The notes under the pieces are model-generated. The model worked only from the letters and a program-made list of their open reading frames with translations, did not search any database and was not told the DNA's origin. Both the position numbers and the translations under genes were made by a program. Below, in pieces: positions 915-20,135 of a stretch of 21,353 nucleotides of DNA. Source of the DNA: Rozella allomycis CSF55 (lineage: Eukaryota > Rozellomycota); contig KE560410.1 in the NCBI GenBank assembly GCA_000442015.1, forward strand, positions 1 through 21,353, read 5' to 3'. Positions within the stretch are counted from its first letter, which is position 1. Each line of letters starts with the position of its first letter.

Positions 915-1065
915 AAACAAGCACGCTGGTCTATAGGCGAATGATCACTAGTAGCAGTAGCGAATGTGTGATTTCAAGCTTGAATTATTAAATGGTAAAA
1001 CATCTGGGTAAACAGGCGCGTTGGCCTATAGGCGAATGATCACTAGTAGCAGTAGCGAACGTGTG
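915..1065. repeat. Two copies of a dispersed ~110-bp repeat
   Basis: Two units at about 915-970 and 975-1065 share the core CTATAGGCGAATGATCACTA followed by GTAGCAGTAGCGAA and GTGTG. The second carries the palindrome GCCTATAGGC. The same family forms the array at 7731-8140. The second copy stops exactly at the unresolved base 1066, suggesting a contig join inside repeated DNA. Confidence 0.85.
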
Positions 1066-1067
1066 NT

Positions 1068-1196
1068 TATAATGATGGAAAATTTGCGATGAAGTATGGT
1101 CGCTATTTGAATAATGGATACGGTGATAAGAATTCACATCATGCAGAGAAATACGATGAAAACAACAAATATGAAGATGCATACAATGATGANTAG
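1068..1196 (+). CDS. Possible 3' coding fragment, Asn/Asp/Tyr-rich
   Basis: From just after the unresolved base at 1066 a plus-strand frame stays open for 41 complete codons (one ambiguous at 1193), then ends in TAG at 1194-1196, 57 bp before the THADA start codon. The peptide is rich in Tyr, Asn, Asp, Lys and His, with words such as KYGRYLNNGYGDK and EKYDENNKYED. It may be the end of a low-complexity protein whose upstream part was lost at the contig join. No family is recognised, and it could be chance in AT-rich DNA. Confidence 0.3.
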   Translation, partial: YNDGKFAMKYGRYLNNGYGDKNSHHAEKYDENNKYEDAYNDX

Positions 1197-1253
1197 TATA
1201 TTCAAAAGACAACTCACAAAAGACTTTAGTAAGTGGCTGAAAACTTCCTGAAA

Positions 1254-4200
1254 ATGACGAAAAAAAATTCGCACCTGCCTTTCTCATTCTCGGGTGTCGA
1301 AAAGCTCTCAAAAATATACACAAAATGGAGTTCCCAGACATGGAGTGAGCAAAAAGCGAGTATTCTACAGTTTAGCGGGTGTGAAGCGTTCTACGTTGGG
1401 ATAGGCGTTGACGATGCGACTCTGAAGCGGCTGTGTGTGCAGCGAGTTGAGCAGAGTGAGTATGAAGCGAGTGATGAAGATATGCGGCTGCTGCGTGAGG
1501 TTGTTGGGTATGAGGGGTATTTGTATGGGCTGTTTGTGTTTGAGATGGTTGGGATGGGACGAGTGTGTGGGTATTTGGTGAGGGAGCTGGTTGATGAGAT
1601 GTGTGGTGGGGAGGCGATGGATGATGGGGTTGAGTTGATGGCGTTGAGGTGTTTGTATGTGCTGATAAGGGATGGACGGACGGTTGTTGGGTGTGAGGAG
1701 GGGAGGAGGCTTGAGATGTGGTTGGAGGCGTGTTTTGGGAAGAGCAAGGAGACTGTTGGTGTTGCTGGGCTGGTAGTTGTTGGGCTGTGGAAGAAGAATG
1801 GGGTGTTGAGGGAGAAGATGGAAGAGTTTGTTGGAGGGATGGGCTGTGATGTAAGGAGTGTGAGTGTGATCAAGGCGTTGTTTACGTTGGAGTTTGAGAC
1901 GATTGAGTGGTGTTTGGAGAAGATGCTTGGAGTTGTGATGGCAGGGTGTGAGACTGGGAATGTATTGATTGTGCGGGTGATTAGTTTTGAGGCTTTGGTT
2001 GATGTGCACAAGTATCATTGTGAGAATATGAATGGAGTTGATGGGAGGATGGGGATTGTGGAGCGGATGAGCAGATATTGGGATGATGCTGTGGATATAT
2101 TGAGGTATAAGGTGAGGGATTTGTTTATGGTGAAGATGATGTATGAGAGCAAGGAGGAGATTAATGGGATTGCTAGGCGGGTGATGAAGAATATTGGCAG
2201 TGGGGGTGTTGTGCAGAAGAATGCGTATGGGATGATGAGTGTGTTGATGAGACATATGAAGGTTGAAGATGCGAGTGAGAAGATTGAAGAGTGTGTGATG
2301 TCGTGTGAAGGGGCGATGGAATCAGAGTTGTTGAGGAATAAAGCGTGTGATTTGTTGTGTGCATGTTTGAGTGTAGAAATAGAGAATGTTACTTTGAGTG
2401 AATATAAGAGTTTGAAGGTTGTGATGAGAGGGATGGAGAGTGCGAATGTGAATGTGAGGAATGCGTTGTGTAGATTGGTGATGAAACCGATATGCGAGAG
2501 GTATGTGAAGAGCATCCCAAAGTTGATTGAGAGTGTTGGAGGTGATGGGAATGTTAGGGGGAAGATGGCGCTGATGACTGTAGCGAAGACTGTTGGAGGG
2601 ATAGAGATGAATGATGTGAGGGAGCAATTGAAGAAATGTTTTGATCATTTTGATGAAGATGTGAGAATCCAGGCGTTGAGCTTTGTGTGTCAAGATAGAA
2701 AAAGCTGCAAGGAAATTAAACAAGAAGAATTAGAGCTAGTTTTGTATTTTGTGGAGAATTGTTTCTTGACTATTAATAGTGATACAAGACCAAAAATTAA
2801 AGTTAATTTGAAGAGAATGTTTGAGAGAATGAAGAAGAGTTTTAAAAGTAATATTGATGTTTATGAGATCTATTTGAATAAAATGTTAAAGTTTTGTGAC
2901 GAGGGATTGCATTTGGGATCATGTTATAATAGATTGAGTATTTGTTTGTTTTTGGTTAAAGAAATTATTGAGTTTGAAATTGAAATTGATTATGCGTTGA
3001 TTTGGAATAAACTGTTTAAATGTATTTTCTATGATGATTTTGAACTGAAAGAAAATTGTTATGAAATATTGAAGACTATTAAACATAAATTACAGGGCAC
3101 AAAAGGGATTGATGATAGTTTCAAGTCGTTAGATATGCATTTACTGAATTCTGTAAGATCTAATGATGCTGAATCCATTGCGTTGTTGATAAGATTGATG
3201 AAAGAACCACTAATGAAATATTATAAATTGTTTAGAAAACACTTGAATGAAGCAAAGAAGGATATTAAAAGAGCGAGTGTTGAGTATTCGTTGCAAGGAG
3301 TTTTAATAGTTTTGGGTTATTTAATTGAAGATGAGAAAGAATTTAATGATGTTGAAATAAGAGAAGGATTGTTTGAAATGATTAGAGAATTGAAGAATAT
3401 AGTTTCTAAAGTTATGGAGAGTTCAGCACCTGAAGGGTTCATCATTGACGACATTGACATAACCACTGCTAGTAGTAGTGCATTAACTTGTAACGCTTTG
3501 TCTTCGCAATTAACTTGTAACGCTTTGTCTTCGCAGTATCTCAGTTGCTATTGTTGGAGATCAATTAAACAATCAAATCAACTTGCAGGGGTTTTAGCAA
3601 AATGTTTTGAAAAAGATTACGAGTTTATTTCAAGGTTAGCAGAATATTTAAAAGATTTATTAATAAATTCAACACATTGCGGGGCATTTAATTCAGCAGT
3701 TCCATCTTTTCAATTGGTGTGTTCAATACTTTATAAGAATAAACAAATGAAAGAAATTAGTGGATTGATTGATGGATTATTTTCTAGTTTGAATGAGAAA
3801 CAAAGTTATACAAGAAGAAGCGGTGGGATTCCATTAGTCTTGTTGGAAATATTAAAGAATACAAATGACCAATTTCTAGAATATTCTTTTAATAAACTAA
3901 TAAAGAATTGTTTTGAAGAAGAAGAAGAAGATCATGTCAAGATACATTCAATGAATATAATTAAGAGTATTATTAAAGAATCAACATTGAAAAAGAATAT
4001 AATAAACTATATTAGTGATTGTATGGAAATTTGTTTGAGTTCATTGAAGAGTAAAGATTGGAATATAAGAAATTGTGGAATGATGCTTTTTAGTTCATTG
4101 ATTGTTAGAATATTTGGTAGTAAGAAATCTAAAGATGAATCTTTGAAGGAAAATAAAATTACTGCGAATGAATTGTTTTTCAAGTTTCCCAAGATTTACA

Positions 4201-5907
4201 ATTTAATTCTACTAGAACTAAAGGGGATGAAGGGGGTGAAGGGGGAAAAGGGGGAAAAGGAGAATGGAGAGAATAGTACTACTTCAATATCCACTACTTC
4301 TTCGTCTACTGCGACGTTGTTTTATATTCTTTTGTTGTTGAATAGACTGGAACCATCATCTTCTGATAAATTACATGGAATAGATTTAGATGAAATAATA
4401 GATTTACTATTTAATCTACTGGGGTCTCATAATATAAGAATACGAAGTATGACAGTCAATGCAATATATTCTTTAACAAATGATTTCAATTCTCTTTTTC
4501 TCTATTTAAAGAATATTTGTTTAAATCTAAATCTTTACTCTTCAAACTTTCAACATGGCATTCTACTCTTGTTTCATAAAATATTAAAAAAGATTAATCT
4601 AAACAATTTCAATCTAAATAATCTTTTTATTCATCAATCTTTTAAATGTCCAATAATCTCTCAATTGATAATTCAAATCTTAATTGATTTTAACTTCAAT
4701 TCTATTTCTGATGCAATTCCTTTTATTAAAGCAAATGTTTATTATTCAGCTATTGAACCAAATCAAAGAAATTTACTTTTAAATTCAATCAACTTTAATG
4801 TTTCAAATGAATCATCTATTCATGATTTAAAGTCTATTTTACAGAATATATCAAGGTAAGTATTTTATAGATTGTTTTCTTTTTTAAATGATGTTTTTGA
4901 TTAGTCTTTATGAAATCCATTGATTCCAAAGCCTTTTCTGATTCCATCTCTTTAACTATTTCTTTTATTTAAACAGTTTCTAATTATAGATTTGGTATTT
5001 CTGAAAATTACAAGTCTTTGAAACAGTAAGTTATTTCACCTTTATTATTCTCATTCCATCTAATGATGTCTTTATGAATTCCATTGATTCTAAAAGCCTT
5101 TTCTGATTCCATCTCTTTAACTATTTCTTTTATTTAAACAGTTTCTAATTATAGATTCGGCATTTCTGAAAATTACAATTCTTTGAAACAGTAAGTTATT
5201 TCACCTTTTATTATTCTCATTCCATCTAATGATGTTCTTGATTAGTCTTTATGAAATCCATTGATTCCAAAAGCCTTTTCTGATTCAATCTCTCTATTAT
5301 TTCAATTTCTTTAACAGTTTCTAATTATAGGTATTTGTTAAGCAAACAGCCAAAGAATCAACTAGAAGAGAAGAATATTCTTGAATCTCTTTTGCTATTC
5401 CCTTCAATAGAATTTCCACCAGAGAGAATCCTCGATCAAACTATTTCATGTAAAAATAACCACATCAAATATTTAAACCTCTTGGTTCTATCAAAGACTA
5501 ATTTATCAACTCTAAATTCCTCTTACATTGAAAAGCTATCAACGTTCCTTTATGGGTTATCAGATCCAACAGTAAACTATTACCTACGATTAAGTTGTTC
5601 TCGTGTTGTCGAGTCTTTAATACCAATATTCACAGCATTCAAAAATGACTATTTCATTACCGCACTATGTAGGCTTCTAATGGATGACGATGATTCTATC
5701 AGGCATTCAATTAACTATTCCTGTCAATCTATTCTGCCTCATCCATCTGATACTCTAGTTGCTCTAAAATATTTTGCTTCGATGATTGGAAATAAGTCCT
5801 TACTAAAATCTACATCAAATAGTGACTATGGGGCAAATGGGCTTTTCAAAAAGGAACAAGCTAATCAATTCATTGATAATATTTTATTGAACTCTTTAAT
5901 AAAATAG
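1254..5907 (+). CDS. THADA/Trm732 homologue, tRNA 2'-O-methylation cofactor
   Basis: Exons 1254-4855, 4990-5025, 5155-5190 and 5331-5907 join in frame (all introns phase 2) to give 1416 aa, close to yeast Trm732. The family is an armadillo/HEAT-repeat partner of the FTSJ1/Trm7 methyltransferase, which modifies the tRNA anticodon loop at position 32 in the cytoplasm. Diagnostic DUF2428 motifs are CYCWRSIKQ (about residue 768), TRRSGGIPL (about 853) and NIRNCGMMLFSSLIVRIFG (about 936), followed by an FFKFPKIY segment. The last exon has the terminal HEAT repeats (YLRLSCSRVVESL, LMDDDDSIRHSI). The start is the first ATG after an in-frame stop at 1230-1232. Oddities: a 9-residue duplication just before the CYCWRS motif, a Gly/Lys/Glu-rich insert near residue 990, two duplicated microexons, and a very G-rich sense strand over the first 1.4 kb. 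Family assignment is firm; splicing of the microexons is inferred. Confidence 0.9.
3483..3536 (+). repeat. 27-bp in-frame tandem duplication inside THADA
   Basis: Bases 3483-3509 and 3510-3536 are identical except for the last base (A or G). They encode LTCNALSSQ twice, in the linker immediately before the conserved CYCWRS motif. The duplication keeps the frame and sits at a domain edge where length variation should be tolerated. Confidence 0.95.
4856..5330 (+). repeat. Tandemly duplicated introns with two 36-nt microexons
   Basis: Three introns (4856-4989, 5026-5154, 5191-5330) begin GTAAGT and end TTTCTAATTATAG. They share a long internal block (CTTTATGAAATCCATTGATT or close variants, then CTTTTCTGATTC). 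Between them are two 36-nt exons, 4990-5025 and 5155-5190, encoding FGISENYKSLKQ and FGISENYNSLKQ; they differ at three bases, one of which changes an amino acid. All junctions are phase 2, so none, one or both cassettes can be included without breaking the frame. The unit is 165 bp. The TCTAAT word close to the acceptor is a candidate branch point. Confidence 0.85.
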
Positions 5908-5913
5908 AATTTT

Positions 5914-5919
5914 AATAAA
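5914..5919 (+). terminator. Poly(A) signal of the THADA gene
   Basis: AATAAA lies six bases after the THADA stop codon, followed by AT-rich DNA. Such a short distance fits the compact 3' ends of the other genes here. Confidence 0.6.
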
Positions 5920-6456
5920 ATTAGTTCCAACTTGAAATAATATATTTGTAATACAGTTGATTATGCGGGGCTTGCGTTCTCTTCTTATATTCAGATTTCA
6001 TTTAAACTATAAAATATTAAAGGAGTAAATCAGCCATTAGGCGAGTCACCCTAGTACATTAAAATATTGAATCAAGTTACATTTAAGTAAACATACTTCG
6101 AATCTGGACCATAAGCGGAGATTTGGATTTGATATAAGCTATTTAATAGTTACCGAAACATATGCCGTAGAGATGTATTCTGTGATTTTCATTTGCGTAA
6201 TCACTTCCTCCATGTGGTAGATATTTTTTGGAAATGAGTGGTAATGGACAATAGATTATAGATCGTTCATTTTCATCATAACCAACTTGCATTGCTATTC
6301 CGAATTTCGGAAAAGACATCCCACTTCTATGGTTGGAAACTAGGCCTTCAGCCCATCAGATTTTTATGTGGAGGCTTTTGGTAGGCATTTGAAGTCTTTC
6401 AAAGGTCATATTTCTCACTTTATTCTTTAAAAAATAGAATGTCATAAAATTTAATG
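5920..6456. other. Intergenic DNA without a recognisable gene
   Basis: No frame of useful length is seen. A diverged 50-bp segment at 6075-6124 (TTACATTTAA, then TCGAATCTGGACCA, then CGGAGATTT) recurs in direct orientation at 6705-6753, on the other side of the SINE, pointing to an old duplication. Confidence 0.5.
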
Positions 6457-7730: not shown

Positions 7731-8140
7731 GTTTGCAGCTTAAAATATTAATTGGTAAAACATATGGGCGATTAAGGGCTTTGGCCTATAGGCGAATGAT
7801 TACCAGTAGCAGTAGCGAAGGTGTGATTTCAACTAAGCCAGTTTGCAGCTTAAATTATTAATTGGTAAAACATATGGGTGAACAAGGGCTTTGGCCTATA
7901 GGCGAGTGATCACCAGTAGCAGTAGCGAACGTGTGATTTCAACTTAGCCAGTTTGCAGCTNACAAGCGCGTTGGCCTATAGGCGAATGGTCACTAGTAGC
8001 AGTAGCGAACGTGTGATTTCAACTTAGTCAAATTTGCAGCTTAAATTATTAATTGGTAAAACACATGGGTGAACAAGCGCGTTGGCCTATAGGCGAATGA
8101 TCACTAGTAGCAGTAGCGAACGTGTGATCTCAACTTAGCC
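7731..8140. repeat. Array of four ~110-bp tandem repeats
   Basis: Copies can be aligned on TTGGCCTATAGGCGA at 7781, 7891, 7971 and 8082. Spacing is 110, 80 and 111 bp; the short interval is where the unresolved base 7961 replaces about 30 bp of the unit. Each unit runs GTTTGCAGCTTAAATTATTA, ATTGGTAAAACATATGGG, GGCCTATAGGCG, GTAGCAGTAGCGAA, GTGTGATTTCAACTTAGCC. The unit contains the 10-bp palindrome GCCTATAGGC, and TGATCA or GTGATCAC in three of the four copies. Two more copies lie at 915-1065, so the family is dispersed. It has no spacer structure and is not a CRISPR array. Confidence 0.9.
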
Positions 8141-8164
8141 CATTTCTAACCGAGCCGCTGCAGC

Positions 8165-8169: not shown

Positions 8170-8724
8170 TGATGTAAAAAGAAGGACATTTATTTAATTT
8201 AGGCGAGGCTTCGTATATTAGTGAGGATCGTTTCTGATTGGTTCTGTGCGTGTGAACAGATCTTATTCTTGGATGTCGTACCAGGGAGTCTCATCCCATT
8301 TCATAGAGGGATTCTCATCCTACCCTTCTTAGAATAATTATCAAAGAGAGAAATCATAATTCTAAGGGATCTCTTAATCATGAAGGATCTCTATTGTGAT
8401 ACTAATTATAGAAAGGATACTATTTATAATTATAGAAANCAATTATCAACGAGAGGAGTCATGATTCTAATGGATCTCTTAATCCTGAAGGATCTCTATT
8501 CTAATACTAATTATAGAAAGGATACGTTTTATAGAAAGGACCAACATATAAAACTCTAAGGCGATATCAATAAATAGAACGGAGTATATTCCATTCTCAA
8601 TCGACTTCAGTTTTACTCTTTTATCTTTCGATTTACTATCAAATTTATGAGGATCTAGATACTATAAGCGCATGGAGCGACATTGGACTCTTTCGTCTAT
8701 TATTCTATTATTAGTAATACGACA
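8170..8724 (-). repeat. 3' LTR of the gypsy element (555 bp)
   Basis: Boundaries are set by the GTCAT duplication on the outside and the polypurine tract on the inside. On the plus strand it begins TGATGTAAAAAGAAGG and ends AGTAATACGACA. It contains an internal ~105-bp tandem duplication and, near its inner end, the C-terminus of the pol frame. Confidence 0.92.
8336..8524. repeat. ~105-bp tandem duplication inside the LTR
   Basis: The copies at 8336-8420 and 8441-8524 share AATTATCAA, GGATCTCTTAATC, GAAGGATCTCTATT and ACTAATTATAGAAAGGATA, with several substitutions. The unresolved base 8439 lies between them. It may be a duplicated transcription-control block in U3, or two LTR copies joined by the assembler. 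Confidence 0.8.
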
Positions 8725-11700
8725 TTCACCTCTTCCTACGTGCTTTTCCAAGAAAGGTTTTAATCTGCGAATGTTGATTGTCTCGTGAATAGAGTGTACA
8801 TCCAAAACACATGTAACGTTTGCATTTACTTGAAGAATCTTATAAGGTCCTGAAAATCTCGGTTGAGTCTTTGAAGGATTAATATGTTTAATAAATGCTT
8901 TCATACCGAGGGAGGGCGTAGTTGAAGTTGATTCTTGACTTATTTTCTTTTGCCAACGCCGTTGCCTTTTTTTCTGTCTTCCTGTTGCGGTCTCGAGAAG
9001 TTCATTAGTATTGTATTTTAGACTTGGATGAAGCATGTTGCATCTAAATGCTAATTCTGCTGGGGAGCATCCTAGAACTCGATAATACGATGTTTTGAAA
9101 GCCGACGATATAGCTGGTAAACGATGCGACCAATTTGATATTCCAGTTGCCTGTATACTATGATTATGAAAACCATCAATTTGTTCGACTAGGGAATTGC
9201 TTGAGGATTATATGTGGTTGTTGGGCAATACTGAATTTCGTAACTGTGCAGTAGTTCTTGACACTCGGCGCTTGTAAATTGTGTTCCATGATCACTTGTT
9301 AATTTACTTGGTCTTGGGTAACGACATAACCATTCGTTATCAAATACTTGTGTCACCGTAGCGGCTTGTATATTGTTCACTGCAACTCCATCCTTGTGCA
9401 CCAATCAATCATAATTATCACGTATGTGTTTTCCTCCTCTCCACGTAAGAATTTAAATCAGGATTATTGATAAATGTATCTGTATTTTCCGATATGTTTT
9501 CTGCTTTAAAATTGAAAGGACCTAGAATATCAATCGAGACATGAAAGCATGGAATGTTGCAATTTAATGAGCGTAATACTTTTCCATATGAATTTGACGG
9601 CTTGGAAATTTGGCAAGGTTGACATGAATTGATAAAATGAACAACGTCGTCCTGTGAGTCCAATTAGCAACTTTTCGAATTGTTTGATATACGTTGGTAA
9701 TACCGGCATGTTGTACAGAGCAGTGCAACCTTCAATAATTGGGTTTTGCAGTAATGTAGGGTGTAGGGAACGGTCAAATTTTTGTAAGAAAATTACTTGC
9801 GTGGTAAATCCTGGTGGTAATGTCATTGAGAATTTTGTTGATTTAGGATCTAACGTTTGTAATTCCTTTCTTATTTCGTGACTCTCCGTACATTTATTTT
9901 GAAATTCGTTAAAGATGTTAGGATCTAAGGGATAGTCACCGTCGTGCAGGCTAACTGTGTTGATTGTATAATTGTCATATTTTCGTGAGAGGAAATCAGC
10001 AGCTGTATTTGGCTCGCCCTTAATGTAAGTAATGCGGGGACCAAATTCAACTATAAGTAACTACCATCTTTGAATTCTGTGTAGGTTAAATGTTGATAAA
10101 AATTGCCAATTAGAACGATCCGTAAAAATTGCGATTTCGTGGCCACAAATAATGTGTCGTGTTGCTTGACGCGCCCACACAATTGCCAAAGCTTCCTTTT
10201 CCGAGGTTGTATTCTTCGTTTGTGGATCAGACAATTTTACGACTAAAACAATATATTAATCTAACTTCTTGCATACGAATGGCTCCCACGCCTTTATCCA
10301 AAGCATTTAACATTTGAAAAGGTTTCTCATAATCTTACAAATAAATGTTGGCTAAATGTTTCAACTCATTTATAACTTTTCTCAAAATGTTTGTGTGTTC
10401 TTCGCTCCATTTAAAGGGGACTTCCTTTTTAATAGTCCCGTTTTGGGGCGATTTTGGTACTCACGTAAGGGATCATTAATCTGTTGAAATTCAATGCGCC
10501 AACCAATCTTTGGAATCCTTTTCTGTTCTTCGGTGTGCGTAATTTCTCCAATGCTTCCATATTGTGTTTCGAAATATGAGTTCCATTTCCACTAAGTTCA
10601 AATCCTACATATTCAACTTTCTTTTGCAAAAAATTACATTTGGCTAAATTCAGAGTTATTCCATGTTGTTCAAATCGTTGAAATATTATTTTTAAATCTT
10701 TTATGTGTTCTTCTTTGGTCTTAATAGCAATAAGTAGGTCATCTAAAAATACTCTGACGAGAGGTAAGTCGTCGAAACGTTTACTGACGTCATGTTAAAA
10801 AATCATAGGTGCGTTAGATGGGAAAAAGGGCGTTCTGGTGAATTCATACTGTCAAAAACTAAAGTAAAGGCAGTGGGAGGGATTGCATCAGGGTGGATGG
10901 CACGTTGAAGTTGAAATCAAGTTGGGAAAAAATGACTGCGCCAGATAAGGAATAGATAATATCATCTATGTGAGGCATGGGGAAGCGGTCAACGATCATA
11001 TTTTGATTAAGTAATCTAAAATCTACCACAAGTCTGATGCTTCTATTCTTCTTTAGTTCAACAAACGCTGGTGACGGAAAAGGTGGTAGACTTTTCTTGA
11101 TGATTCCCATAGATTTCCATTTTAAAATTTCTTGTTTTCGTTGTAAGTCGCTTGGGGAAGAAACTGAATCTGATATTCCGCATCTTTTAAAAGACCAATA
11201 TGAGTTTCGGACCCTTGGATTAATGGATATTTCTGTAGAAGTTGCCTAATTACAGGATGGCAGTTTATGGTTTGGAAAAATGTTGGCTTTTGACACTAGT
11301 ATTACGTCTGGATCAACATCTATGTTAGACGTATTATATTGCTTATCAATAGAATTTAAAAAATAAATTTGAGTTTTTCGTCCTGCAGATTTCTGACTAT
11401 TTGTTTGAAAATCAATAGCAGTATTATAGGTTTGTAAAACATCCATTCCTAGAATAGTTTCGGCAGTGCGTGTTGAGAGTACAGCAGCTTTGACATTTAA
11501 TTTGATTGTTGGGCTCCGGCTGAGTAGGAAAAGAGGAAATCTTGTGGTTCCAATGGTCTGGTTAGGAGATCCGTCCGCGAGCGTTATGCGACGAGGTTTC
11601 AATTCTAGGGGAAGGTTTAGTATATGTGCAATCTTCGTGTTAATGATGGTGATAGATGAGCCGGTATCGACAAGACACTTACCAGGGTGATGTAACATGG

Positions 11701-11828
11701 AGCCTTGTAACTCTAAACGCTTAATAGTGCTTGCTGAAGCATATTGGCTTGTTCGTTTTCTGGGGTGTCCTTGTCGGCGCTCCGGCTCATATCCAAAAAG
11801 GCTGCGTGGTCTTGATGTCGAGAGGTTT
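8662..11828 (-). pseudogene. Degenerate gypsy pol (protease, RT, RNase H, integrase)
   Basis: Protease (11246-11828) has the active-site motif CLVDTGSSITII and the later ILGMDVL. The RT finger/palm (10859-11110) has RLVVDFRLLNQN and a FSQLDF catalytic segment; the second catalytic motif FLDDLLIA is at about 10730-10750, and the connection segment is at 10429-10629. RNase H (about 10000-10240) has TSEKEALAIVWA, FTDRSNW and NTAADFLSR, with an in-frame stop at 10061-10063. Integrase has the zinc-binding CQPCQ (about 9608-9635) and core motifs FHVSIDILGPF and SDHGTQFTS. The C-terminal SGPYKILQVNANVTCVLDV and INIRRLKPF segment (8662-9036) has no clear chromodomain. Frame changes separate these blocks, so no intact polyprotein can be made. 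In a live element the product would copy the RNA to DNA and integrate it. Confidence 0.9.
8725..8737 (-). other. Polypurine tract of the gypsy element
   Basis: On the minus strand AGGAAGAGGTGAA directly precedes the 3' LTR, where a plus-strand primer is expected. It lies within the 3' end of the pol frame. Confidence 0.7.
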
Positions 11829-13535: not shown

Positions 13536-16417
13536 ATGCAATCACAATTTCCAAAGTGGCTTATGCACAAGTACATTCAATTAGACAACGCAGCATCAGA
13601 TTTTGAAATAATTCCGAAAGCAACCACTGACAGCGAAGATGACGACTTTTTCCATTCACAGCGAGTGCGTCAATTCACCAAGGACATTAAACGCAAGCTG
13701 GTCAAGGTATTCAGTCGCAAGAATCCGCGCGAGCTTGAAATCCTTGTTGAGCTGGATACGCCCACCAAGGCGATGTATGGGGGACTGGTTGCTCCGTTTT
13801 ATCGGTTTACGAGCCGTGACAGCGCTGTGCCTGTTCCTGTGATGTTTTCGATGTTGGATGTAAGGGGATGAGTTTAAATGGAGTAGGTTCATATAGTGTG
13901 CTGTGAGCATGATAATGCGATGTTTGATGCGAATTTGCCGGTGACGATACATTTGACGTATGGAGTGACGAACCAGAAATGGAAGGTGTCGCATTCGCTG
14001 CTGGATTTTGCAAAGCTGCATTCTATATTGAGGATACGACATTTGAAGGGGCATATTCCTAGACCCCCGAGTTTTCCGCCGCAGCTTGTGCATCTTGTTA
14101 ACCAAGCGAAGGATTGGCTTTCTGATTCGAAGCAACGGATGTTGAATAAAGTGTTAATGACACGTGAGAGAATTACTGCGTTGGAGATTTATTTGAAACA
14201 GTTGTTGGCTGTGATGAATATGAAATCGTGTATTGAATTGTGTGAGTTTTTGGAGATTAGTGGGTGTTTAGTGAAGGGTCCGATACAAAAGTTTAAAAAG
14301 GAGGGGTATTTGAAGCAAAAGGTTCATTCTTGGGGAGAGTTTTTTACTTTTGTGATGAAGTGTTGGATTGGCAAGAGATATGAGCAACGATGGATTGTTG
14401 TTGGGGATTCGTTTGTAGCTGTTCTAGAGAGGATAGATTCGCAGTATCCAATACAAGTTTTGCTTTATGATTCGTATTTTAGAATTAGCGAAGAAACAAA
14501 ATTATTTCATCCGAAACTTGTGGTGGCAAATTATTCGCAGAAATTGGAATTGCTGATTAAGAATGATGGCAAGAGGAAAGAATGGTTTTCAATTCTAAAG
14601 AAACAAAGCTTTGTGAATGAATTCTGTAAAGTGCATCCACATGGATCGTTTGCACCAGTGAGACTGAATTGCCACGTTGAATGGTTTATTGATGGACAGG
14701 ATACGTTTAAGTCAATCTATGAAGCAATAAACAATGCACAAAGACAAATTTTTATTCATGGATGGTGGGTGTCGCCTGAGCTTTATTTGTTGAGACCGAG
14801 CCATCTTTATCCCGAGTCACGATTAGATAAACTGCTAAAGTTGAAAGCATCGCAAGGAGTTCAAATCTTTATCATTGTGTACAAGGAAGTTTCATTTGCA
14901 TTGCCAATAAATTCATATCATACAAAATTTACACTGCAGGGGCTGCATAAGAATATTAAAGTTCAAAGATATCCAGACAGGGGTACTGGACCCTTGTATT
15001 GGGCGCATCATGATAAATTAGTAATTATTGACCAATCGATAGCATTTACGGGTGGTCTCGGTAAACAATGTTTAAATTTAGTTAAATAGATTTGTGTTAT
15101 GGAAGATATGATGATCAAAGCCATTCTATAGTTGATACTTCAGATACCCCAACATGGCCAGGGTTAGACTATTACAATCCAAGAGTTAAAGATTTCCGCA
15201 ACGTGCATTTGCCAGATACAACGCTTGTTGATAGAAAACTTGTGCCTAGAATGGCGTGGCATGATGTGCACTGTGTAATCCAAGGTGAAGCAGCCAATGA
15301 TTTGTCTAGACACTTTATTCAACGATGGAACTTTATCAAGACAGTCAAGGCTATGAGTAAAGGCGATTCAATTCCATTTTTGTTCCCTGGATCCCTTAAA
15401 CCCTTTAATAAAACAGTCACCGGCAAAGTCAATATCCAATGTCTGAGGTCCTGTGGTGAATGGTCAATGGGAACTATTCCTGAAAAGTCTATTTACGATG
15501 CATACATCCATCACATCCGCCATTCAAGGCGATTTATTTACATTGAAAACCAATTCTTTGTATCCACGTGCGCCAAGCCATCCCCAGTTAGAAATGAAAT
15601 TGCATTGGAAATAGCCAATCGAATAAAACTAGCATTTGAAAGAAACGAGACATTTAAAGTAATCATTGTAATTCCACTGATGCCTGCATTTGAAGCTGAA
15701 GTGAACCAGTCAGCAGCAACCACAGTGAGACGGGTAATGAAAGCCCAACTTGAATCCATTTCACGGGGTCCAAATTCTCTATTTGAGAAGATGAAGAGTT
15801 GGAATATAAATCCAGAAAATTTTATTGCATTTCTGTCGTTGAGAAGAGTTGATGATTTGTTGGGAAACAGAGTGACTCAGCAGATTTACGTGCATAGCAA
15901 ACTGTTGATTGTTGATGATTTGGTTTGTTTGATGGGATCTGCAAATTTGAACGATAGAAGCTTGCTGGGGTTTAGAGATTCTGAAACGTGCATTGTCGCC
16001 CAAGACACTGAATTTGAACAAGTAGAGTTTAATAATAAACACTTCAAAGTTGGCAAATCTATTTTTAATCTCAGGAAACGTCTTTTTATGGAACACTTTG
16101 GCTTACATGAACATGATGATCTGCTGAATGATCCAAGCAGTGACGCTTTTTTTAATGATATGCTGCATACAGCTAGAAATAATACACTCTATGTGAGACA
16201 CAATTTTAATTCTATTCCTGATGATACAGTCACATGCTGGGAAACTTATAGAAAGTTTAGCAATGGGAAATCCAACAATGCGATTGAATCGAATCCATGG
16301 AATGCCGTTCTTAAAGGGAACGCTGTTATGTATCCACTAGAGTTTATGAAGAATGAAGATTTGAGTGCTTCCATGTTGAATGCGGAATATCTGTTGCCAT
16401 TGGAAGTTTACTTGTAG
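13536..16417 (+). CDS. Phospholipase D with PX and PH domains
   Basis: Exons 13536-13859, 13887-15060 and 15090-16417 join in frame to 941 aa; the introns are 27 nt (phase 0) and 29 nt (phase 1). The enzyme hydrolyses phosphatidylcholine to phosphatidic acid and choline at cell membranes. Domains in order: a polar N-terminus; PX at about 95-230 (VPVPVMFSMLD across the first splice); PH at about 245-350 (EGYLKQK ... RWIVVGDSFVAVLE); first catalytic HxKxxxxD at H483, K485, D490 (HHDKLVIIDQSIAFTGG); IYIENQFF near 649; second HKD at H768, K770, D775 (VHSKLLIVDD); GFRDSET; and the conserved C-terminal LLPLEVYL. The second splice rebuilds GGLDLCYGRYDD, which is conserved in PLD1/PLD2/Spo14. The long loop between the HKD halves found in vertebrate PLD1 is absent. 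All catalytic residues are present. Confidence 0.96.
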
Positions 16418-16438
16418 ATTTGCCTTGTAGAAATATTA

Positions 16439-16444
16439 AATAAA
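16439..16444 (+). terminator. Poly(A) signal of the phospholipase D gene
   Basis: AATAAA lies 21 bases after the TAG stop, in the 72-bp gap before the convergent RanGAP gene ends. Confidence 0.65.
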
Positions 16445-16479
16445 TTTGCATATTAGCCATAACGTTATAATTAAAGAAG

Positions 16480-16485
16480 TTTATT
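16480..16485 (-). terminator. Poly(A) signal of the RanGAP gene
   Basis: AATAAA on the minus strand lies four bases beyond the RanGAP stop. Together with the signal at 16439-16444 it implies that the two convergent transcripts overlap at their 3' ends. Confidence 0.65.
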
Positions 16486-16489
16486 TGCT

Positions 16490-17703
16490 TTAAACAGATA
16501 AATTATTTACCGCAGAAGCCAATGCATCCATTGAAGTGCCTTCCTTTAGCACTGTTTCCTCGCATTCTGATTCTCCCGACTCTTCTTCCGACTCTTCTTC
16601 TGAATCCTCTTCATAATCCATATCATCCCACTCATCTAAAATGTCTAGTTTCCCCATTCGATCAAGGTTATTCTTTATAGCTTCTGCAGCGCTCCCATCA
16701 GGATTAAAAGAGTTGCCATTCAGCGAAAGACTGTTCAACGATTCAAAACGAAGCAGCGCCTGTGCGGCAATAAGCGCACCGTCCTCATCCATTTCGTTAT
16801 ATTGATAGTTAATGCTATTAAGCTCCTTAAAATTAGCGCTCGATAGCGACTTCCAAACTGCCTTTGAGCCAACTGAACCCAGCAAGCAATCACCAATATT
16901 CAAATTCTTCAATTTCGGCCATTCATTTTTATCAATCGCTTTTGAAAAGGCCAAAGATCCAACTTGAGTAAACGTGTTGTCATTCAAATCTAATATTTCG
17001 AGATTCTTGCAGGTCGCAAGTGCCTCGGACAAGTCTTCTACACCCTCTGGGCGAATTCCGTTTTGAGGCAACAGTATTTGTTGAAGCGTTTTTGAATGTG
17101 CCTTTATTGCTTTTCCCAGCTCTTTCGCGGCTGCGTTTTCTAGTCTGTTTCTGCCAATAACAATAACTTCTAATCCAGAATCTATTTGTTCACTATTTAA
17201 CTTTTCTGCCAAAGATACTAGAGCTTTTGCAATCGTAGACCCGCCTATTTCTGCATGCTCCATCTTTTACCTTGTGGGCCCAGACCATTGTTGTTCAACA
17301 TTAACACCTTCAAGTGCACAGCGTTTTCCAAGTACTCAACAAGTGGGTTCGCGCCAGCAGGGCCAAAGGCATTATCGCTCAAATTCAGCTTTTCCAGCGG
17401 CTGCTTCAGAAACGCATCACACAGGGATTTCAGTGCCAGGGGAATTTCGCCAAGCAATCTTCCAGTGAAAATATCACTCAATTCAGCAGTCTCATAAGCT
17501 TCAAACAAATTTTATACCTTTAACGACTTTGTTATCGACAGGGCATCTGCCAAGGCAGAAATTGCTTCAACGCCAAAAGTATTCCCAGATAAACGGATTT
17601 CTGTAGTTTCTGCGGTTATCTCGTCAAGAAAAGGCTGTATGTCCTCTGCCGTATTCAGTTTTAAACCTTTTCCTTCAAGAGAAAATACTTTTGACTGTGC
17701 CAT
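16490..17703 (-). CDS. Ran GTPase-activating protein (RanGAP/Rna1)
   Basis: Minus-strand exons 17703-17518, 17490-17271 and 17244-16490 join to 386 aa, the same length as fission yeast Rna1. Introns are 27 nt (phase 0) and 26 nt (phase 1). The protein stimulates GTP hydrolysis by Ran in the cytoplasm, maintaining the gradient that drives nuclear transport. It is a leucine-rich-repeat protein: SLEGKGLKL at the start, then SDIFTGR with R73 at the place of the critical Rna1 arginine, LNNNGLGPQ with N129 at the place of the conserved asparagine, GRNRLEN (166-172), QNGIRPEGVE and NDNTFT. It ends with an acidic tail (EEDSEEESEEESGES). The metazoan C-terminal RanGAP1 domain is absent. In the second intron a 20-nt alternative is also in frame, but the 26-nt one gives GLGPQGGSTIAKAL, which matches the family without an insertion. 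Confidence 0.96.
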
Positions 17704-17751
17704 TTAGGTGGCTAAGGCTGGAACTGTCAAAAAATCAATAATCGTAAAAAA

Positions 17752-17757
17752 TTTATT
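17752..17757 (-). terminator. Poly(A) signal of the RFX gene
   Basis: AATAAA on the minus strand lies about 33 bases past the RFX stop and 48 bases before the RanGAP start codon. The 86-bp gap must therefore hold both the RFX 3' end and the core promoter of RanGAP. Confidence 0.6.
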
Positions 17758-17789
17758 TGTTTCTGAGCTTTAGCAATTCAAAATGGCGG

Positions 17790-20135
17790 CTAATGAAGAC
17801 TAGAATAATAATTTTCACAATTAGGTACATCTACTCTTAATTTCTTTTTTGATGGGACAAATGACTCTTCGCTGTGGATGTTCTTTTTGGGACTGCCGTG
17901 TGGACGTATCAAATCACTTGCATGATTTGTATCATGTAGAGGGGGCGCCAATTGTTGTGCTTGGAAGCCATCAGATCCGCCGTAAATAACGCTTTTATTA
18001 GATGCCTGAAATTTTACTTTGTGTAATTGTCAAAGACTTCCTTGTTTGGAGCCATGTTTGATGGAAATGAATTACGCTCGGTATTTGCATGTGCTCTTGG
18101 TGGTTGGCTCTCCTGATACTGGCGATGAGCTTGCACTTCTTCTGCTTGGGCCATTGCCTCTTGACTCCAATGTTCTTCATAAATCTGCCTTTTAAGGTCT
18201 TCCAGTTTCCTTTCCACAATATAGAATATGTATTCGTCAAACAATAACCTCATCAAATGATAAGAACCTTTTAAATATTGAAGATAATGTTACCGAATGA
18301 ACTTGCACTTCTCAATGTCAAGTCACGCATAATTAGTGTAGACATAAATGACCATTTCATTAAAAATTGTCTTGAATTGTTTTCTACAATAGACGGATGC
18401 TCTGGTTCGTGAGTCTATTGAAGTTTATGATTTGTGTTACTTCTGGGGCCAAGCACTGTTCAACAATTCCTTCGAGCCATTCGCACCAAAATTCCAAAGA
18501 AACTCCTTGGCGTAAGTATGTTCTGAAACTCTCTTCCACTATTCAACATTATAGCAATTTATTACCCGATTCAAAAATGTTTTCTCTACATATCACAACC
18601 CATGAGGCTTGCTCTTTAATACTCTCAAAGTCAATATGGTTCCAGTCATTCAANTTATATTACCCGATTCAAAAATGTTTTCTCTGCATATAACAACCCA
18701 CGAGGCTTGCTCTTTAATACTCTCAAAGTCAATATGGTTCCAGTCATTCAACATCTGGCTAACTTGTTCTGAATTTTGCAAAACTGTTCTAGCAGCCTGC
18801 GCCAAATGATTTAAAGAGGTTCTTCGTCTAAGTACATGGCAAAATCTTCTGGCGCAATCAAGCTTTACATCCACAACAGCCATTGGAAATCCATCAAAAG
18901 CAGTCAAGAGCCAGATTTCCAAGTTTTTCGCAAAATGTCGTATCTGTTGTGACAAATTTATATTTAAAGGCTCTAGAACATTGGATAACAGTAATTGCAC
19001 AATATTCTTATGTTATAGTTATAGAATGTTTACCTGGTTCATTAAATCATCTGTTACACCAATTAATCGGCAAGCCTCCTCGCAGTTCAAGTTTGAAATT
19101 ATTTCCGAGTTTAATCCCTGCCAAAATTGTTTTAAAACCACCTCCATCTAGCATACATCTAAGAAAATCAATTTACTGAAGCAAAGTCTTTCATGCTAAT
19201 CATATTGTACACTTGTTGGCAGTGGATACGATATGCACTGCAAAATTCTACTAGCGCGTCCAAAGAAATGTGAGAGGGTATGTTTGATGCTATAGGTACG
19301 CAGTGCTCTTCTAAGACACAAATAAAGTCCTCCACACTCGGGCTGGTGTACAACCTTTGATCGTTGCGTTGCTGAATCTCTGAGATTGATTCCAAATTTT
19401 CTTGTTTAACTTTTCTGTTGCCGCTCCTTGGCTTTGGTGCACTGACTTTTTGTTCAGCACTTCGTACAATGAGGGATGTGTCATGGTTCATCATTTCCGG
19501 GTCGTTTTTCAGTTTGATTCCATAATAATGGTACCTATAATTAAATAATTTGTTTCATACTTTGAATTCCCGCGTGTTCCTAGTCTTCTTGTTTTGAGGT
19601 TAGGAAACACTGCCCTGATAATTTTACCGAATGAGGCTGCATTGACTGGTTCTACGCCCGATAAATGACACTGTTCCAAATAATGGGAATAGAGTGTAGA
19701 TCTTGGCATGCTAACTCCTTCATGCGCTTCATAGTTGGCCTCCAGCCATGTCGAAACGAACGGTGCCTTCGTCTTACTTACGCCATTCGACTGAAAAGCC
19801 TGCGCTAGTCTTCTAATGTAATTTAAACTTATAATATTTACGCTGGAAGTGGTTGATGAGCAAAGGCCTGAGGCCCGGCTTTTGCGGGGGAAGAGTAATG
19901 ATGAAAAATCCCTATGTGGCACTTTGAGAACATTTTACCTCCTTGTAGTGCATCATTACTTTCATCGTCTTCAGATGTGTCTGTAGATTCCTTAATGAGT
20001 GTTAAATCAAAGTATTACGTGATATTCAGAGTTTGTTGTGTTGGCAACGGCAACATTCGAGTGCTGATTGATGGTAGTGTCATTTTCTTGCTTTTTGTGG
20101 GGTTCATTATCTGCTATTAACACCGTGGAAAGCAT
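17790..20135 (-). CDS. RFX-family winged-helix transcription factor
   Basis: Eleven minus-strand exons: 20135-20019, 19990-19939, 19911-19842, 19812-19561, 19534-19177, 19147-19034, 19006-18566, 18538-18441, 18414-18294, 18267-18018 and 17991-17790. Introns are 28, 27, 29, 26, 29, 27, 27, 26, 26 and 26 nt. With a 98-bp assembly duplication removed from exon 7, the frame is continuous for 658 aa. RFX proteins bind X-box DNA in the nucleus. The DNA-binding domain is at about 101-172 ([46 protein letters not shown], the last split by an intron). The dimerisation region follows ([18 protein letters not shown] at about 381, [35 protein letters not shown] at about 499-516), then a probable coiled coil and a C-terminal SKKKLR nuclear signal. 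An acidic Ser/Asp/Glu stretch lies at 40-55. The start is the first ATG after an in-frame TGA; exons 1-3 and 11 rest on frame and intron pattern only. Confidence 0.93.
18560..18751. repeat. 98-bp duplication joined at an N inside RFX exon 7
   Basis: Bases 18560-18653 and 18658-18751 match over 94 bp with three substitutions, and the single N at 18654 lies between them. Both encode the same stretch ([18 protein letters not shown]). The offset of 98 is not a multiple of three. Removing exactly 98 bp leaves exon 7 at 343 nt, which fits the phases of both neighbouring introns and the family alignment. Two unmerged contigs or alleles are the simplest cause. Confidence 0.92.

Follow-up and report, generated by a model that had tools for sequence, protein, structure and literature searches.

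How are introns of only 26–29 nucleotides (nt) recognized and spliced in a fungus, and do they call for an unusual spliceosome? The question is raised by three neighboring genes, for a phospholipase D (PLD), a RanGAP and an RFX transcription factor, in a stretch of 21,353 nt (referred to as the window) from Rozella allomycis CSF55, a parasite whose host, Allomyces, is itself a fungus. An earlier reading made from the sequence alone (the sequence-only reading) proposed fourteen such introns in these genes. We tested the fourteen intervals by translation, against deposited Rozella proteins and against relatives, comparing the 17 residues that span each splice; at the level of sequence and translation this confirmed that they exist as described, and the observation holds. 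Very probably, these are ordinary U2-type spliceosomal introns, handled by a conventional spliceosome through intron definition and held to their size by a length floor together with deletion bias. The sister lineage of Rozella, the Microsporidia, has lost almost all of its introns, and the intron density of Rozella itself is given as 2.53 per kb of coding sequence (PMC8476143). The genes and introns, with the number of junction residues shared with deposited proteins (P0241, P0001 and P0121 being those of Rozella), are the following.

13536..16417, plus strand: phospholipase D gene (PX and PLD domains) with two short introns; spliced protein of 941 amino acids (aa), compared with P0241
13860..13886, plus strand: PLD intron 1, 27 nt, phase 0, in-frame stops if retained; 17/17 against P0241
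15061..15089, plus strand: PLD intron 2, 29 nt, phase 1, splice restores GGLDLCYGRYDD; 17/17 against P0241, 12/17 against the distant P0242
16490..17703, minus strand: RanGAP gene with two short introns; spliced protein of 386 aa, identical to P0001 (100%) over its full length
17491..17517, minus strand: RanGAP intron 1, 27 nt, phase 0, in-frame stop if retained; 17/17 against P0001, 9/17 against Basidiobolus P0003
17245..17270, minus strand: RanGAP intron 2, 26 nt, phase 1; 17/17 against P0001, 14/17 against P0003
17790..20135, minus strand: RFX transcription factor gene with ten proposed short introns and an assembly gap (N at 18654); identified by its match to P0121 and its domains
19991..20018, minus strand: RFX intron 1, 28 nt; 17/17 against P0121
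19912..19938, minus strand: RFX intron 2 (disputed), 27 nt, stop-free; kept as nine residues in P0121, intron score 2.67
19813..19841, minus strand: RFX intron 3, 29 nt; 17/17 against P0121
19535..19560, minus strand: RFX intron 4, 26 nt, restores GNSKYHYYG; 17/17 against P0121, 14/17 against Paramicrosporidium P0138 (with a terminal gap in the compared residues)
19148..19176, minus strand: RFX intron 5, 29 nt; 17/17 against P0121, 8/17 against P0122
19007..19033, minus strand: RFX intron 6, 27 nt; 17/17 against P0121
18539..18565, minus strand: RFX intron 7, 27 nt; 17/17 against P0121
18415..18440, minus strand: RFX intron 8, 26 nt; 17/17 against P0121, lowest intron score among the 14
18268..18293, minus strand: RFX intron 9, 26 nt, restores SASSFGSYHL; 17/17 against P0121, 15/17 against Paramicrosporidium P0138
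17992..18017, minus strand: RFX intron 10, 26 nt; 17/17 against P0121

All 14 intervals read GTA...AG, with lengths of 26 nt (five), 27 nt (five), 28 nt (one) and 29 nt (three), exactly the tally given in the sequence-only reading. At 13 of the 14 splices the 17 residues are identical and ungapped in P0001, P0241 or P0121, and the agreement extends well beyond the junctions. The spliced PLD is 99% identical over 83% to the deposited Rozella ‘phospholipase D/nuclease’ (P0241), on which Pfam PX and PLDc domains are detected and whose C-terminus diverges from our reading of the window, while the N-terminal part of RFX is 98% identical over 99% of the query to P0121, with matches to the RFX_DNA_binding and BCD_RFX domains. 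Since the deposited proteins are themselves predictions, the 13 matches amount to agreement with annotation and not to proof of splicing. Retention would shift the frame for nine of the 14 segments, and four of the five 27-nt segments would introduce in-frame stops. None of the 14 begins with RTATCCTT, the 5' splice site of minor (U12-type) introns.

Comparison with relatives adds evidence at some of the sites. Splicing restores GGLDLCYGR in PLD, NNNGLGxQGG in RanGAP, and RGNSKYHY and SASSFGSYHL in RFX; LSDIFT is common to a relative but is preceded by three different residues (TAE versus IMN). Several other junctions fall in stretches to which the relatives tried could not be aligned. In P0122, a relative of RFX from a metagenome, 17 additional residues coincide exactly with the KYHYYG junction and may represent a longer, retained intron in the equivalent place.

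The prediction that ordinary gene finders would break these genes proved mostly wrong, as 13 of the 14 segments are already spliced out in the deposited proteins; judging from these, introns of 26–29 nt are largely annotated here. What survives of it is that stop-free introns with a length divisible by three are easily missed. In our own ab initio run on the window, PLD intron 1 was called as 189 nt, and RFX was unreported at default settings and surfaced only at lower penalties, with some wrong calls. The RFX gene also holds a repeat (18558–18760), in which ~90 bases recur with few differences on either side of the single N at 18654; instead of a genuine duplication, this most likely reflects two alleles or a contig overlap that was left unmerged.

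Is the narrow length range a peculiarity of three genes? We sampled positions 1–200000 of another contig (C69), ~2% of the assembly, of which 13,786 bases form one stretch of N. A search for gene structures, based on coding statistics and favoring no intron length (a uniform prior), returned 158 introns for GT-AG, 72 of them of 24–31 nt, as against 5–19 in that range for each of 14 other dinucleotide pairs run as controls. In a cross-validated run, for which the end motifs were learned on one half of the sample and applied to the other with no length prior (held out were the motifs, not the coding model), 94 of the 214 calls were of 26–29 nt (30 of 26, 23 of 27, 20 of 28 and 21 of 29 nt), flanked by only two calls at 24–25 nt and 12 at 30–33 nt. 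Two further cases do not depend on the gene finder: the profile match of Isy1 runs across a 28-nt gap (positions 66 to 67), and the best match to the U2AF65 profile runs across a 26-nt gap (positions 431 to 432). The size class is also found in the genes of Isy1, the U2AF65 candidate, Cwc25 and Prp8. Thus, a narrow class of 26–29 nt recurs across the sampled 200 kb, which supports the tight distribution noted in the sequence-only reading.

These data also bear on the view that the segments are not introns at all but assembly frameshifts, sites of translational bypassing or parts of pseudogenes. The local assembly error at N 18654 inside RFX and the failure of default ab initio prediction to report that gene would fit such a view, but it leaves unaccounted for the GTA...AG ends and 26–29-nt lengths of all 14 segments, the excess of GT-AG far above all 14 control pairs, the continuity of deposited proteins over 13 junctions and of relatives over several, and the same size class in the Isy1, U2AF65 candidate, Cwc25 and Prp8 genes. 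We consider it extremely improbable.

Compared with known short-intron systems, a length of 26–29 nt is neither a minimum nor unique, and Rozella adds a further lineage to a known phenomenon. The description of these introns as close to the spliceosomal minimum was overstated, given published lengths of 15 nt in Stentor, 18 nt in the Bigelowiella nucleomorph and 23 nt in Trichomonas (PMC12316389), and of 16–17 nt in mikrocytids, where they are explained by a functional minimum acting against deletion bias (PMC10245619). The closest parallels are Paramecium tetraurelia, with a mean of 25.1 bp and 99.9% of introns within 20–35 bp (PMC5663052), and dicyemid mesozoans, with 26.2 ± 1.9 nt (n=16; PMC2222250). 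Like these, Rozella shows a single narrow class below ~35 nt, in its case within the 200 kb sampled (94 of 214 calls at 26–29 nt). It shares one narrow length class with Paramecium but places it at 26–29 nt and in a fungus; with the dicyemids it shares a parasitic habit and very short, uniform introns, though the dicyemids are an animal lineage and their introns would be of independent origin. Mikrocytids (16–17 nt), the nucleomorph (18–21 nt) and Stentor (15–16 nt) have similarly narrow ranges, and the Rozella introns are ~10 nt longer; moreover, mikrocytid introns are described as conserved in sequence, unlike those of Rozella. The type B introns of Trichomonas (~23–25 nt) are similar in length but have kept a branch motif, CTAA, close to their 3' end (PMC12316389), and no such consensus was found in the Rozella introns. 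The suggestion of a comparison with early-diverging fungi was apt, Rozella being one itself. An open-literature search, with the genome paper of James et al. 2013 outside it, returned no report on Rozella intron lengths, which does not show that none exists.

Does the machinery differ from the usual one? Our survey covered U1, U2, U6, SF1, U2AF65, Prp8, Cwc25 and Isy1. The U2 and U6 RNAs (139.2 and 88.5 bits) score above their Rfam cut-offs and U1 (69 bits) slightly below its own of 69.5, and the recognition sequences of all three are canonical (ACTTACCTG in U1, GTAGTA in U2 and ACAGAGA in U6). SF1 is complete, with SF1-HH (helix-hairpin), KH and zinc-knuckle domains, and Prp8 was found. For U2AF65 there were 28 matches, no doubt including many other RNA-binding proteins, and the best-scoring one is taken as the candidate; its 126.7 bits lie below the family cut-off of 310.3, and introns splitting the gene may account for the low score. 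Stentor is reported to lack the Gly-rich plug of Cwc25 and the conserved N-terminus of Isy1 (PMC9505925), and Rozella differs in keeping both (MGGGDLNLKKSWHP and MARNREKAKSMF are present). Its Cwc25 starts MGGGDLNLKKSW, with the Gly2–4 plug, and retains tryptophans 12, 24 and 72, as in Stentor; its Isy1 matches positions 1–253 of 253 of the Pfam family with residues 1–256, such that the N-terminus fits from residue 1.

A modified spliceosome, in which altered small nuclear RNAs or branching factors permit tiny introns as conjectured for Stentor, is therefore an explanation to which we give very little credence: the recognition sequences of U1, U2 and U6 are canonical, SF1 is complete, a U2AF65 candidate and Prp8 are present, and precisely the two features lost in Stentor are kept. 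It draws what strength it has from the absence of a branch-site consensus despite a canonical U2 (see below) and from the fact that most spliceosomal proteins, Yju2 and U2AF35 among them, fall outside the set examined. In the features tested, the modified intron-recognition mechanism offered as one possibility in the sequence-only reading thus finds no support.

The signals within the introns are weak. In 115 called introns of 26–29 nt, the 5' end is GTA in 97% and is followed by A or T in 93%, a G weakly precedes the donor, the 3' end is TAG or AAG, and A+T content is 79% as compared with 65% in exons. In these 115 introns we found neither a polypyrimidine tract nor a branch-site consensus: CTRAY occurs eight times against 5.9 expected, YTRAY has no clear preferred position, and among the branch motifs tried only ATTT (61 against 45.4) and, weakly, TTTAA (23 against 15.7) exceed expectation. 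Exons contain 1.64 bare GTA...AG pairs of 26–29 nt per kb, more than the 0.97 per kb at which introns of this size were called; thus, the ends and their spacing are by themselves not enough to define an intron. An intron score combining end motif and composition separated 111 called introns from 193 exonic GTA...AG pairs of equal lengths with an area under the curve of 0.97, computed in-sample. Separately, GTAAGT...AG at 27 nt, tried as a genome-wide consensus, gave 285 matches against 619 in an unmatched reversed control and was discarded as the wrong consensus.

Could distance itself be the main recognition element? If only GTA...AG pairs ~26–32 nt apart were spliced, exons would be selected to avoid such pairs, and in Paramecium the recognition of only very short introns is said to raise the risk of excising cryptic introns from exons (PMC5663052). 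We counted exonic GTA...AG pairs at set lengths against synonymous shuffles, comparing 26, 28 and 29 nt with ten other lengths. In the exons of the gene finder, sense look-alikes of 26, 28 and 29 nt number 3 against 26.3 expected at a score of at least 1 and 15 against 51.9 at a score of at least 0, the corresponding values for the ten other lengths being 60 against 109.2 and 133 against 206.4; in antisense, at a score of at least 0, they are 52 against 50.6 and 133 against 181.3. Because the shuffles overpredict everywhere, in antisense too, only the ratios are meaningful. In uninterrupted open reading frames (ORFs), taken without the gene finder, 25 look-alikes of 26, 28 and 29 nt were counted where the control ratio predicts 36.1 (score of at least 0, P=0.034); the two remaining thresholds gave P=0.052 and 0.071. 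An avoidance by exons of look-alikes of intron length is thus suggestive only. The strong selection proposed in the sequence-only reading is accordingly possible, as exonic look-alikes of 26, 28 and 29 nt fall below expectation, although with P values of only 0.03–0.07 once the gene finder is set aside. Length-gated splicing gains from the weak motifs, the lack of a branch consensus and the contrast between the sense deficit and the antisense counts at intron length, and loses from the antisense overprediction at other lengths, the weaker deficit outside gene-finder exons, the low counts of look-alikes also at 30–32 nt in gene-finder exons, the excess of bare exonic pairs, by which GTA, AG and distance cannot suffice, and apparent introns of 129–140 nt in a TRM732-like gene of the window. 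On balance, we regard it as rather unlikely.

The scoring also helps with the one interval that the deposited protein does not splice. RFX 19912–19938 is frame-neutral and stop-free, P0121 retains its nine residues, and the relatives tried do not cover the site. Its score of 2.67 is reached by 64% of the 111 called introns but by only 3% of the 193 exonic pairs, i.e., it is typical of introns and rare among exonic pairs, and we therefore lean toward an intron: the segment is probably a hidden stop-free intron kept in the deposited protein. A second instance may be present in a Rab5 gene of the C69 sample (predicted gene 4591–6063, minus strand), where our own gene finder read a stop-free 27-nt segment, GTAATG...AAAG, as VMYFLMITK; these residues stand directly before the conserved IGAAFLTQ and correspond to a clean nine-residue gap with respect to solved Rab5 structures (...T-IGAAFLTQ...). 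As this segment illustrates, a stop-free intron with a length divisible by three is easily read as coding. It is one of seven exonic 27-nt segments in the sample with a score of at least 1.5, four of which were assessed; of the other three assessed, the one in Vps34 aligned without a clean gap, and two fall at the ends of predicted genes, with the TAG of the intron itself serving as the stop. By composition, ~31% of 27-nt introns should be stop-free, and among those called only one of 27 is; since the finder is blind to most such introns, this low count does not tell whether stop-free introns of these lengths are underrepresented. Look-alikes of 27 nt are near expectation at a score of at least 1 (10 against 11.6 in gene-finder exons and 8 against 11.3 in uninterrupted ORFs) and are depleted at lower thresholds as at other lengths in both exon sets, and as they stand out only at that one threshold, the number of hidden introns is uncertain. 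Such introns can place nine false residues in predicted proteins.

Taken to its full extent, the length-gated idea would describe a code on an unmodified fungal spliceosome, in which a spacing of ~26–32 nt stands in for the branch site and polypyrimidine tract, look-alikes at that spacing have been cleared from exons, stop-free 27-nt introns go unseen and false nine-residue inserts remain in part of the annotated proteome (in RFX and possibly a Rab5). We put this forward tentatively, as a minority view. The tight length class, the lack of a branch motif and the standard recognition sequences together make length-gated recognition testable.

We favor instead ordinary U2-type introns whose length is bounded from below. 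A cut-off of 26 nt would represent the shortest intron that the spliceosome can engage, with U1 and U6 contacting the 5' end, U2 contacting a loosely specified branch adenosine, and the AG at the 3' end. The genome being compact, a bias toward deletions, perhaps together with selection against longer introns, would hold lengths just above this floor. Recognition would proceed by intron definition without a strong branch-site or polypyrimidine consensus, the weak end motifs, A+T-richness and short length jointly marking the segment. Several observations weigh against this account. We infer the removal of the segments from mature mRNA from protein continuity, and RFX 19912–19938 is retained in the deposited protein. 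The missing branch-site motif is unusual beside a canonical U2. The evidence for recurrence comes from one contig, and 99 of its 214 cross-validated calls are of 34–400 nt (37 of 34–100 nt and 62 of 101–400 nt), with nine more of 10–25 nt; the predicted models of the U2AF65 candidate, Cwc25, Prp8 and SF1 likewise hold unverified calls of 41–123 nt. In the search with a uniform length prior, calls above 50 nt are no commoner for GT-AG (63) than for the 14 control pairs (64–100 each), and most long calls are therefore read as noise. The TRM732-like gene, too, appears to carry three introns of 129–140 nt, on an ab initio model with no confirmation from homology. If the introns of Rozella do prove to be mostly of 26–29 nt and spliced by standard machinery, they would offer a natural test of how far introns can shrink before an ordinary fungal spliceosome fails, in the absence of changes like those conjectured for Stentor, and of the view that narrow intron lengths arise where a functional floor meets a deletion bias.

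The longer candidates of the window stand in a THADA/TRM732-like gene.

4856..5330, plus strand: three tandem candidate introns (134, 129 and 140 nt) with two copies of a 36-nt mini-exon in the THADA/TRM732-like gene; ab initio model

All three read GTAAGT...TTTCTAATTATAG, with splice motifs that look stronger than those of the short introns, and the mini-exons are in-frame, as if intron plus exon had been duplicated in tandem. Other calls of the same model within this gene are doubtful (31 nt at 1345–1375 and 101 nt at 5572–5672), and the Pfam evidence for the THADA/TRM732-like identity is confined to the upstream ORF. The gene suggested that longer introns with strong motifs might form a second class, like that of Trichomonas, but this was not supported: GTAAGT...CTAAY...AG gave 52 and 50 genome-wide matches against 376 and 362 in controls that were not composition-matched, and long calls in the C69 sample rarely carry the strong motifs. 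Along the coding strand of the same gene, GC skew reaches 0.55 and 0.71 in two 1-kb bins (window 1001–3000) and fades within the ORF.

Elsewhere in the window, the minus strand at ~8662–11827 holds the remains of a retroelement: an aspartyl protease (gag-asp_proteas) and a reverse transcriptase are matched in separate frames, and a Tf2-1-like SH3 domain is matched at a score under its cut-off. A motif, GGCCTATAGGCGAATGATCACTAGTAGCAGTAGCGAACGTGTG, and its variants recur several times, as judged by eye, at ~930–1070 and 7750–8150, near single Ns.

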